Below are positions 23,743 through 57,312 of a DNA stretch of 57,837 nt, piece by piece (position 1 is the stretch's first letter; each line of letters starts with the position of its first letter). The notes beneath the pieces were generated by a model. The model had not been told where the DNA came from, ran no database searches, and was given only the letters and a program-made list of their open reading frames with translations. The stretch is from assembly GCA_012523975.1 (NCBI GenBank), contig JAAYSF010000016.1:1-57837 (forward strand). Reading direction: 5' to 3'. Made by a program: the position numbers and the translations under genes. Source of the DNA: Veillonellaceae bacterium (GTDB taxonomy: Bacteria; Bacillota; Negativicutes; JAAYSF01).

Positions 23743-23979
23743 AAAAAAGCGGTTTGCAACCATCTCGCAAACCGCCTGTACAATGTCTCTTTCATGCCTA
23801 GCAGCGCAAGATAGCACTCCATACGACTAAATTCGTATGACAGTTCTGCACTTATTCAACACAGAACCAGCATAGGTTCTCAGCCAAAAAACCACTGCTT
23901 CGGCGGATAATCCTTTCTGTGCCCGTCATTGCTGGCAGCTCCGGGAACATACTCTTATTATGCCGCACCTCTATCTCAA
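23743..23979 (-). promoter_or_regulatory. Lysine riboswitch (L-box) with terminator
   Basis: On the leftward transcript the conserved L-box blocks occur in order: GATAGAGGTGCGGC, AAGAGTATG, GAAAGG, CGCCGAAGC, TTGAATAAGTGCAG, CTGTCATACG and the closing GGAGTGCTATCTT, whose CTATC pairs with the initial GATAG. The expression platform is GCGGTTTGC/GCAAACCGC with TTTTTT at 23744-23749. Lysine binding should favour this terminator and switch off lysA. Confidence 0.96.
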
Positions 23980-24070
23980 TTCATATAGCTATGTAGATTA
24001 CATTGTAATTCATTTATCCTAAGTTGTCAATCCCCGGGCTTATACCTCAGAGACAAGGAAGGAAACTCTG

Positions 24071-31225: not shown

Positions 31226-31510
31226 AGTAAAAAATAATCGCCCCTATTGACAGTAAAAACCGTCAATAGGGGCGATGTTTATCGCGGTACCACCCTACTT
31301 TTGACCTCATAGCCATTACAGCATTTCCGTTTAACGCACGGCCTCGGCTTAGCCTATCCTATCATAGCATTTCAGCTAAGCGGTTCATGGGCGACGTAAC
31401 AACTACAGCCCCGCTCCGGTTTGCACCAACCACCGGCTCTCTGCATCGGTATGCGCTATAGCCTTTATCCCAATCCTCACCTTTATCCGATGATCAACCT
31501 GTTCTAATAA
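31226..31510 (-). promoter_or_regulatory. T-box leader with terminator, upstream of ilvN
   Basis: The invariant T-box sequence AGGGTGGTACCGCG is at 31283-31296 on the reverse strand. It is followed by a 13-bp terminator (CGCCCCTATTGAC with GTCAATAGGGGCG, 31239-31274) and a U-rich tract. Upstream are the stem I features AGAGAGCCGG...GGTGCAAACCGG and a late CGTTAAACGG hairpin. Uncharged tRNA for a branched-chain amino acid is the expected effector. I could not place the specifier codon with confidence. Confidence 0.95.
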
Positions 31511-54942: not shown

Positions 54943-56424
54943 TTATGATAGTTCGACTATTTTGGTTGCAACATTGCGGCAGAATTCAATGTCATGTTCT
55001 ACGAAGATAATAGTTGGAGCATATTCGAGCAGTAGTTCTTCGATTTGCATTCGTGAGATAACGTCTATGAAATTAAGCGGTTCATCCCAGACATACAAGC
55101 TGGCTTTCTCGCAAAGGCTCTTGGCAATTAGTACTTTTTTCTTCTGTCCGCCGCTAAAATCAGCCATATCTTTTTCAAACTGTACTCTTGAAAAATCAAG
55201 TTTTCTTAAATTAGCTTTAAAAATACTTTCATCGATATTGTTTTCTCTGGCGTAATCCGTTAAGTTGCCCCGGAGATGTGAGGTATCTTGCGAAACATAG
55301 GATATCTTTAGCTGACTTGCTTTACGGAGAGTTCCTGTATAAGTGATGTTTTCGCCGCAGATCAGCTTAAGAAGACTTGACTTTCCTGAGCCGTTCTTAC
55401 CGTAAAGCGCTATTCTGTCACCCTGCTCAATGGTCAAGCTTACGTCCGCACAGGCTAACTTTTCTCCATAAAATATAGATACATCGTCAAGCTCTACAAA
55501 ACGGTTGGCATGGAAATTAACCGTAGACATTTTCAAGCTTTCAGAGCTCTCAATATTTTTGAGAAGCTTTGACTTTTCATCAATAGCCGATTTCTGTCTT
55601 GCCTCAATTGTCTTAGAACGTTTCATCATCTTTGCGGACTTATGACCAATATAGCCTTTATCCGGCTTTACACCTGAATTCCTTGTCCCCACCTTTGTTT
55701 TTTCAACTTTATCTGACCAATCAGAAGTTCGCCTTGCGGCTGCTGTCAAGCGAGAAATATCTTTTTGAAGTTTTTCGTTTTCGGCAAGCTCAAAGTTGTC
55801 TTGCCTTTTTTTGTTTTCCCACCAAGACGAAAAATTCCCTTTTTGAATTTCGATATTGGTTTTGTTAATCGAAAGGATATGGTCAACACAGTTATCAAGA
55901 AATGCCCTATCGTGCGACACCAAAATGAAGCCATGCTTTGAGTTTAGATAGTCGCTGACAATTTTTCTTGCCTTGATATCAAGGTGGTTGGTCGGTTCAT
56001 CAATCAGCAAGAAACTATTTTCTTTCAAGAACAAGGCTGCAAGCAGTACCTTGGTTTGCTCTCCGTTCGACAGCGTAGCAAAAGGCCTATATAAAACGTC
56101 CTCGGAAACCTGCATTAAGGAAAGCTCCCGCATAACCTGCCACTGCTGGTAATCCGGATAGATTGTTTCAATTACATCCAGAGTACTGTCGTCGGTATTT
56201 TTTACTTCGAACGGAAAATACTCAAAGTTTACTTTTGCTGAAATAGTACCGCTGTATTCGTATTTGCCTAGTAATAAGTTAAGAAATGTAGTTTTACCCC
56301 TTCCATTGCGGCCGGTAAAACCTAATTTCCAATCTGTATCTATCTGAAAGCTTACGTTTTCAAAAATATTATCATAACTGCCATCATAGCCGAAGGTCAG
56401 ATTTGTAACGTTTATTAAAGACAT
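54943..56424 (-). CDS. ABC-F ribosomal protection protein, Lsa/CplR type (antibiotic resistance)
   Basis: The 493-residue protein has two ABC ATPase domains and no membrane helices. First: Walker A GRNGRGKTT, signature LSNGEQTK, Walker B FLLIDEPTNHLD. Second: GKNGSGKSS, FSGGQKKK, VWDEPLNFID. The interdomain linker (about 185-300) is long and charged, as in antibiotic-resistance ABC-F proteins of the Lsa, Vga and CplR groups, which remove lincosamides, pleuromutilins and streptogramin A from the ribosome. Resistance is inferred, and is supported by a leader peptide with attenuator hairpins directly upstream. AGGAGG precedes ATG 56424. Confidence 0.92.
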   Translation of the reverse strand: MSLINVTNLTFGYDGSYDNIFENVSFQIDTDWKLGFTGRNGRGKTTFLNLLLGKYEYSGTISAKVNFEYFPFEVKNTDDSTLDVIETIYPDYQQWQVMRELSLMQVSEDVLYRPFATLSNGEQTKVLLAALFLKENSFLLIDEPTNHLDIKARKIVSDYLNSKHGFILVSHDRAFLDNCVDHILSINKTNIEIQKGNFSSWWENKKRQDNFELAENEKLQKDISRLTAAARRTSDWSDKVEKTKVGTRNSGVKPDKGYIGHKSAKMMKRSKTIEARQKSAIDEKSKLLKNIESSESLKMSTVNFHANRFVELDDVSIFYGEKLACADVSLTIEQGDRIALYGKNGSGKSSLLKLICGENITYTGTLRKASQLKISYVSQDTSHLRGNLTDYARENNIDESIFKANLRKLDFSRVQFEKDMADFSGGQKKKVLIAKSLCEKASLYVWDEPLNFIDVISRMQIEELLLEYAPTIIFVEHDIEFCRNVATKIVELS

Positions 56425-56441
56425 AGTTATCCTCCTGTATT

Positions 56442-56562
56442 AAAATATAAGGCTGCAAGAAAGTTACTTCTTGCAGCTCATAATACAGCAAAGCCAAGCC
56501 CAGTAGTACGGGCATGACGAGGATATATTCGCTGAGTAAAAAGAATAGTAACTTTCTTGCAT
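56442..56562 (-). promoter_or_regulatory. Transcription attenuator of the ABC-F gene
   Basis: Two exclusive structures are seen on the leftward transcript. A terminator pairs GCTGCAAGAA with TTCTTGCAGC (56452-56477), followed by a U-rich CTTATATTTT. An alternative pairs TGCAAGAAAGTTACT with AGTAACTTTCTTGCA, a perfect 15-bp match between 56547-56561 and 56454-56468. A stalled ribosome on the leader peptide would change which forms. Confidence 0.8.
56464..56562 (-). CDS. 32-residue leader peptide controlling the ABC-F gene
   Basis: ATG 56562 opens a short frame ending at TAA 56464, inside the terminator hairpin. The peptide starts MQESYYSFYSANISS and ends CPYYWAWLCCIMSCKK. The WAWLCCIMSCKK ending recalls leader peptides before tet(M)/tet(W)-type and ABC-F resistance genes in anaerobes (from memory). 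No strong ribosome site is visible; GTG six bases upstream is an alternative start. A drug-slowed ribosome here should favour the antiterminator. Confidence 0.7.
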   Translation of the reverse strand: MQESYYSFYSANISSSCPYYWAWLCCIMSCKK

Positions 56563-56725
56563 AAGCACAACAAATCAAGGCGGCTTAGCGCTGCCATCGC
56601 TTTATTATGCCTTATTAATCAGCAAGAAAGATTTACTTCATCTTTTCAACTCCAATACTTAATTTGTGAATATTATATCATACCAATTCTCTAAATTCAA
56701 GGTTGTCAAGCTACGGACTGCGACA

Positions 56726-56759
56726 AGAAAATAAGACACCCACCGATGTCTTATTTTCT
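56726..56759 (-). terminator. Terminator of the 3D-domain gene
   Basis: AGAAAATAAGACA pairs perfectly with TGTCTTATTTTCT; the stem overlaps the stop codon. Confidence 0.85.
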
Positions 56760-57312
56760 ACTCTTCGTCTATTTGGTTTCCTAAGATGAACACTGTAACT
56801 CCATGTGTTCTGCCCCTCTGGCGAAGCTCGCTTGAGGAAGCATCGACATAAATATCAAAGACTTTCCCTTTTACAGCGCTTCCGGTGTCCTCTGCCCGCC
56901 GGCGATGGATGGTCCCATCTGGCATAACAATATCAATCCATGTTCCCAAAGGAACAACGGCAGGGTCGACCGCGACAGTTCGGCCGGGTTTAGTGTAGGC
57001 GCCGCTGGCTGTTGTACCTTGGTCGTTATACCAAGTCACTTGGGCGTCTTTGATAACACTCCGGACGCTTCTTCCTCCGCGGCTTACGGGGTAATTCTCT
57101 CTTTGTCTCTCTGATCCAGTATCGGATTCCTTAACGGTTGTATTTAAGTTTTCGTTTTCTTTGGATAGGTCAGTGACAGCCATCTCATACTGCGGTGGTT
57201 TGTTATTCACTTGTTTCAGGCTTTTTACACTCTGAACTGATGAATAGCCCATAACAGCAATTATTATTGCCATTATTATAAGCACTCGACCTTGAATGTT
57301 TTTAACACTCAT
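56758..57312 (-). CDS. 3D-domain protein (membrane-anchored, MltA/RpfB-like wall enzyme)
   Basis: The 184-residue protein has an N-terminal membrane anchor (about residues 10-27), a polar linker and a C-terminal 3D domain (about 85-180). The conserved aspartates are in TVAVDPAVVPLGTWIDI, RRAEDTGSAVKGKVFDIYVD, and the fold closes with GVTVFILG. The 3D domain is the double-psi barrel of lytic enzymes such as B. subtilis YabE and YocH, and it acts on glycan strands of peptidoglycan. The short length and absence of binding repeats resemble the single-domain members of Firmicutes with spores. A good sigma-A promoter lies upstream. Confidence 0.92.
   Translation of the reverse strand: MSVKNIQGRVLIIMAIIIAVMGYSSVQSVKSLKQVNNKPPQYEMAVTDLSKENENLNTTVKESDTGSERQRENYPVSRGGRSVRSVIKDAQVTWYNDQGTTASGAYTKPGRTVAVDPAVVPLGTWIDIVMPDGTIHRRRAEDTGSAVKGKVFDIYVDASSSELRQRGRTHGVTVFILGNQIDEE

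Follow-up and report, generated by a model that had tools for sequence, protein, structure and literature searches.

The question raised by this locus is whether the RNA upstream of its ABC-F gene senses antibiotics and, if so, by which of its parts. The window, i.e. the whole stretch of 57,837 nucleotides that was analysed, encodes on its minus strand a protein that the initial annotation had described as Lsa-like, and this identity was borne out: the NCBIfam Lsa model NF000167 scored 772.5 bits against a cut-off of 750, the nearest solved relative is Lsa(A) (7nhk), and the CplR family model gave 216 against a cut-off of 780. An attenuator had been proposed at 56442-56562, with a 32-residue leader peptide ending in CIMSCKK as its sensor. 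The features described are found at that place, but the interval misses the functional 5' part of the leader, namely a promoter-like site (56700-56672) and a mini-ORF (56641-56633). The elements of the locus are the following:

54943-56424, minus strand: Lsa-family ABC-F ribosomal protection protein, 493 aa, start codon at 56424 (assigned by profile score and nearest solved relative)
56672-56700, minus strand: TTGAAT-17-TATAAT, a promoter-like site whose second hexamer is preceded by TG (consensus scan only)
56650-56653, minus strand: GGAG, the Shine-Dalgarno site of the mini-ORF, located 8 bases ahead of the ATG and conserved in alignment A1
56633-56641, minus strand: mini-ORF ATG AAG TAA (Met-Lys-stop), the proposed ribosome sensor
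56622-56630, minus strand: segment 1, CTTTCTTGC, which would lie under a ribosome held on the mini-ORF
56565-56610, minus strand: inner portion of the anti-antiterminator hairpin, in which GCATAATAAA (56610-56601) pairs with TTTGTTGTGC (56574-56565), from reading of the sequence
56547-56561, minus strand: segment 2, TGCAAGAAAGTTACT, partner of segment 1 (OFF) or segment 4 (ON)
56464-56562, minus strand: 32-codon frame of the initial annotation, real, unconserved and judged non-functional
56519-56525, minus strand: TATCCTC, OFF-fold partner of GAGGATA (56434-56428) over the ABC-F Shine-Dalgarno
56493-56518, minus strand: hairpin GTCATGCCC/GGGCTTGGC, present in both states, with compensatory changes among relatives
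56468-56477, minus strand: segment 3, GCTGCAAGAA, the 5' arm of the terminator
56452-56468, minus strand: segment 4, AGTAACTTTCTTGCAGC, the 3' arm of both terminator (56461-56452) and antiterminator (56468-56454)
56441-56450, minus strand: imperfect U-tract TTATATTTTA, 3' of the terminator
56431-56436, minus strand: AGGAGG, the Shine-Dalgarno site of the ABC-F gene, which is base-paired in the OFF state

In this order, segments 1 and 2 form the anti-antiterminator, 2 and 4 the antiterminator, 3 and 4 the terminator, and the transcript would be expected to start near 56665. The perfect 15-base complementarity that had been noticed between TGCAAGAAAGTTACT (56561-56547) and AGTAACTTTCTTGCA (56468-56454) is present, as is the exclusive 10-bp terminator: the hairpin 56477-56452 uses the same 3' arm as the 15-bp pairing and is followed by TTATATTTT, its stem counting 11 pairs by terminator scan and 10 contiguous Watson-Crick pairs by reading. 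The minimum free energy of the window leader was -61.6 kcal/mol, compared with -42.9 ± 3.9 kcal/mol in 200 shuffles (z -4.8), none of which was as low; its U-tract is among the poorest, with 7 T in 12 against a mean of 8.9 across leaders. Rfam 15 had no match at the leader above the gathering score; the best overlapping one, on the opposite strand, reached 16.5 bits against a gathering score of 90, and a known Rfam element was discarded. Elsewhere in the window, Rfam identified a lysine riboswitch (23804-23981, minus strand) and a T-box leader (31265-31486, minus strand), and upstream of the leader the same strand bears a frame of 184 aa (56758-57312, minus) that by eye resembles a 3D-domain secreted protein.

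As relatives of the locus we took the 80 best Lsa loci from a scan of named genomes; they are 75-85% identical and belong to Sporomusaceae, Paenibacillaceae, Desulfosporosinus, Clostridium and other groups. The full leader is found in 71 of these 80 loci, in addition to the window, with starts placed by hand at seven loci (L002, L006, L009, L031, L066, L074, L076). Two more carry partial elements, one with a decayed 5' part (L014) and one cut by the contig (L077), and in the other seven (L012, L013, L030, L033, L036, L046, L079) no element was detected, the covariance model R1 being also blank. Thinning at 90% identity, and exclusion of L009 and L066 for an insertion before the gene, left 58 rows, window included, in alignment A1. 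The conserved unit is an RNA of about 235 nt that opens with a Shine-Dalgarno site and the mini-ORF.

A mini-ORF of at most 8 residues, preceded by a Shine-Dalgarno site, stands at the 5' end of all 58 dereplicated leaders (57 called by script and L074 by hand); in the window its start (56641) lies 79 bases upstream of that of the 32-codon frame. It reads Met-stop in 29 leaders, Met-Lys-stop in 3, has three residues in one (L074) and 5-8 residues in 25. An immediate stop follows 29 of the 58 mini-ORF starts, compared with 5 of the 221 ATGs found elsewhere in these leaders. When 72 leaders, 38 of them Met-stop, are placed on a tree of their ABC-F proteins, the Met-stop label must have changed at least 7 times. 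As far as comparison of these sequences can tell, the conserved sensor is the candidate mini-ORF, and the 32-codon frame is unsupported in that role. It could be argued that in Paenibacillaceae the true start is another codon, e.g. the GTG overlapping the ATG in ATGTGA, and that the start-stop mini-ORFs are artefactual. In this family the start-stop ATG lies mostly 11-14 bases after GGAG, which is a long spacing, a GTG frame overlaps in the 11 ATGTGA leaders, and the consulted portion of PMC9841429 describes initiation at AUGUG sites. However, 18 of the 29 start-stop leaders have TAA or TAG and no overlapping GTG frame, and L168 and L171, from the window's own class, show ATG TAA with the usual spacing of 8 bases. 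Moreover, the codon after the ATG varies over all three stops (TAA 12, TGA 11, TAG 6) yet remains a stop, and a misplaced start in Paenibacillaceae appears unlikely.

Both alternative folds of the leader are supported by pair counts in A1. In the ON (antiterminator) fold 86.7% of cells were paired, whereas controls with the pair set slid by 1-3 columns did not exceed 51.8%, and for the OFF (terminator) fold the corresponding values were 89.2% and 52.8%; for both, the covariation score exceeded that of all 500 column shuffles, which leave row kinship in place. The pairing of segments 1 and 2 reached 95.2% of cells, and the best predicted fold contained the corresponding hairpin in all leaders but one (57 of 58, mean z -5.2), the exception being L007, whose best fold lacks the 1:2 helix. 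Compensatory changes were observed in the terminator stem, where one pair passes from G-C to A-U in 20 rows, and also in the retained hairpin and in the Shine-Dalgarno helix. As in attenuators of the vmlR and cplR type, antiterminator and intrinsic terminator are mutually exclusive. The motif TTNTTT, on which NusG-dependent pausing in vmlR relies, follows segment 2 in 30 of 58 leaders, against a mean of 0.21 for other 20-base windows, and its bases are also constrained by pairing.

A leader so long, conserved and structured might instead be a riboswitch, thrown by a ligand or by another trans factor, with the mini-ORF incidental. We consider this very improbable: the near-invariant columns are mostly the Shine-Dalgarno sites, segments 1-4 and their pairing partners, whereas relatives differ in the sequence and the loop of the retained hairpin; the mini-ORF and its stop are kept while its codons change; the leader matches nothing in Rfam; and the genes served are ribosome-protection genes. 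The riboswitch reading was rejected because no invariant unpaired core was seen in A1.

We consider it highly probable that the leader is, rather, a ribosome-mediated transcription attenuator of the Lsa-type gene. When drug is absent, ribosomes would start and finish the mini-ORF at once, segments 1 and 2 would pair, and the intrinsic terminator would form from segments 3 and 4, a fold that would also leave the ABC-F Shine-Dalgarno in a helix. A drug of the peptidyl-transferase centre (lincosamide, pleuromutilin or streptogramin A) would hold the ribosome at the mini-ORF start or at the next codon; the held ribosome would cover segment 1 and leave segment 2 free for segment 4, and this pairing would block the terminator, allowing transcription of the resistance gene. 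We infer from the sequences that ribosomes use the mini-ORF, that such drugs act on it, that transcription really terminates and that the gene is induced; for the ABC-F gene of the window, drug inducibility is a prediction.

The effect of a held ribosome was evaluated by equilibrium folding in ViennaRNA of the leaders up to the end of the U-tract, bases unchanged, using a footprint sized on the 16-base toeprint given in the retrieved text of PMC9226507 and counting as a flip an antiterminator probability above 0.5. None of the 58 unmasked leaders favoured the antiterminator, and with a ribosome mask at the mini-ORF start, extending to A+15, 43-44 of them flipped, while 14-15 failed to do so. 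Masks placed on the loop between segments 1 and 2, or on the start of the 32-codon frame, flipped 0/58, and a mask sparing segment 1 gave 6/58 antiterminated leaders. The switch depended on where the footprint ended (17/58 at A+9, 37/58 at A+12, 43/58 at A+18, 42/58 at A+21), and the window itself went from an antiterminator probability of 0.52 at A+15 to 0.99 at A+18. Among ten further leaders at most 8 flipped, namely those of cfr loci L147-L150, L152, L153 and L165 and that of lsa(E) (L145, probability 0.99), L164 being left out; the footprint failed to flip those of the lsa-type loci L158 and L161. The attenuator that had been proposed for the Lsa-like gene is supported by the family score of the protein, by pair counts for both folds and by the footprint-driven switch in silico. 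The ABC-F Shine-Dalgarno is hidden in the OFF fold; in full-length folding its unpaired probability was 0.0 in both states of the window and rose in 12 of 58 leaders only. Since the main Shine-Dalgarno is mostly not freed in folding, the folding gives no support here to the additional translational layer described for vmlR and cplR.

Longer frames running through segment 2 were also considered. The window contains a 39-codon frame (56597-56478, ...LCLCKKVTILF...), whose translation in the absence of drug would open the antiterminator, while ribosomes stalled upstream by the drug would let it form. The CKKVT reading recurs in relatives because segment 2 is conserved. No conserved start codon or Shine-Dalgarno was seen by eye, and this scheme appears very improbable.

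The 32-codon frame exists as it had been described, from ATG 56562 to TAA 56464 on the minus strand, reading MQESYYSFYSANISSSCPYYWAWLCCIMSCKK, and it ends in the terminator loop; a ribosome stalled near CIMSCKK would block segment 3 and could sterically prevent the terminator. As a sensor, however, this peptide fails. At its start position, 29 of the 58 leaders have ATG, 6 have GTG or TTG and 23 have none, no Shine-Dalgarno site precedes the frame in the window, and the recurring MQES beginning is explained by the conservation of segment 2 (AUGCAAGAAAGU) as RNA. The similar leader endings expected before other ABC-F genes were not found either: the 35 frames with a start codon run for 4 to 65 codons or stay open, and only 3 of them, that of the window among them, have their stop codon within the terminator hairpin. 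Moreover, a ribosome mask on this start covers segment 2. Nascent-peptide leader attenuators are exemplified by tet(M) and erm; a conserved leader peptide with a ribosome-binding site was not found in the 58 leaders. Translation of the 32-residue peptide as the sensing event is very improbable.

The preferred reading, an attenuator sensed at the mini-ORF, is close to systems already described. The vmlR leader of Bacillus subtilis, in the available sections of PMC9226507, shares the very short Shine-Dalgarno-driven uORF (MIN), the anti-antiterminator, the antiterminator, the intrinsic terminator and the helix sequestering the Shine-Dalgarno; it senses by arrest at initiation, the mode proposed here, and its ABC-F product has a pleuromutilin, lincosamide and streptogramin A spectrum. 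The likeness is one of architecture; VmlR belongs to subfamily ARE2 and Lsa to ARE3, and the uORF is MIN there, compared with MK, Met-stop, MxxLSC and the like here. In Clostridioides difficile cplR, a gene of a different ABC-F family, the leader likewise has a short uORF (MRI), a 5' hairpin over it and a terminator that sequesters the Shine-Dalgarno of the gene, and expression is induced by drug challenge, as stated in the portions seen of PMC10201436; the LsaA uORF consensus MAGN given there is absent among our mini-ORFs. Changes in the three-codon uORF of vmlR altered induction (parts of PMC9226507 and PMC10201436), and drug stalling at uORF start codons is also shown for Streptomyces TiaA and Are5sc (excerpts of PMC12421871). 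In Listeria lmo0919/rli53 and hflXr/rli80 a drug-stalled uORF ribosome selects the antiterminator, but hflXr differs in using a peptide of 14 residues whose RLR motif is a macrolide-sensing signature (passages of PMC6310831 and PMC11550727). Eukaryotic start-stop uORFs, such as that of the boron-regulated NIP5;1, have the same start and stop as a regulatory uORF but work by reinitiation (consulted part of PMC5972666), whereas transcription attenuation is proposed here. The architecture being published for vmlR and cplR, this kind of attenuator is already known. Judged by the loci compared, what is new are the putative start-stop mini-ORFs, the presence on lsa(E) plasmids and the apparent capture by Cfr-family genes. 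With the terms searched in the open-access literature we found neither a bacterial start-stop uORF in an antibiotic attenuator, nor a study of lsa(E) regulation, nor this leader as an RNA family with its lsa(E) and cfr associations. The default of uORF4u requires nine bases according to the extract of PMC10219788, so start-stop sensors would escape it.

A start-stop mini-ORF carries no peptide and would thus read initiation or release directly, not the sequence of a nascent chain. Met-stop, Met-Lys-stop and MRxFSC-stop on one scaffold offer a natural series for testing whether sensing of these drugs needs any codon after the start.

The range of the leader was assessed with the covariance model R1, which matched in 27 of 398 genomes across the phylum, in 52 of 398 genomes from the class of G022 and in 11 of 40 genomes of relatives; neither of two genomes from the same family has the element. 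We read 63 R1 loci, i.e. the best ones, after dropping reverse-strand shadows (L114-L116, L177) and mere terminator matches of 37-41 bases (L112, L113). A mini-ORF of at most 7 residues is present in 62 of them, 18 being Met-stop, L176 alone having none recognised, and in all 63 an ABC-F start or Walker-A motif comes next. L093 and L094 showed no open ABC-F frame, and L163 was judged a chance match. In two genomes (L156 and L157) the 3' half of the element occurs, without mini-ORF, upstream of a gene that by eye is KdpD-like, about 11 kb from an intact copy.

The same leader precedes plasmid-borne lsa(E) of Enterococcus faecium (L145:1120-1373; R1 89.5 bits), with the mini-ORF MYNFSC-stop. It occurs in 107 PLSDB plasmid records, 102 of them from Enterococcus, and among the 12 records listed no annotated feature lies under the match. 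On balance we lean towards a portable antibiotic-sensing RNA family outside Rfam, whose sensor would often be a bare start and stop, distributed in Bacilli and in the window's class, carried by lsa(E) plasmids with a six-residue mini-ORF and captured by Cfr-family genes after loss of Lsa. Such a family would predict which resistance genes are drug-inducible, mobile lsa(E) included.

Twenty regions were chosen from second or weak R1 hits, and eight of these precede genes for Cfr-family rRNA methyltransferases (L147, L148, L149, L150, L152, L153, L164, L165), all with a start-stop mini-ORF. Two of the genes scored 636.8 and 629.3 bits with TIGR04432 (cut-off 550); the other six were assigned by sequence similarity, by reading. 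At L147 a stub of the beginning of Lsa persists between leader and cfr gene, so that loss of the Lsa gene probably left the leader in place. L147-L150, L152, L153 and L164 also share, in the stretch separating the leader from the cfr gene, a conserved frame of about 35 codons (MEIEVVDD...IDRCT) with a good Shine-Dalgarno, which is perhaps a second leader before the Cfr gene; a similar frame is found in L079. In Paenibacillus mendelii (L046) an Lsa gene lies directly behind a gene that by eye is Cfr-like, without a leader of its own within 1.5 kb.
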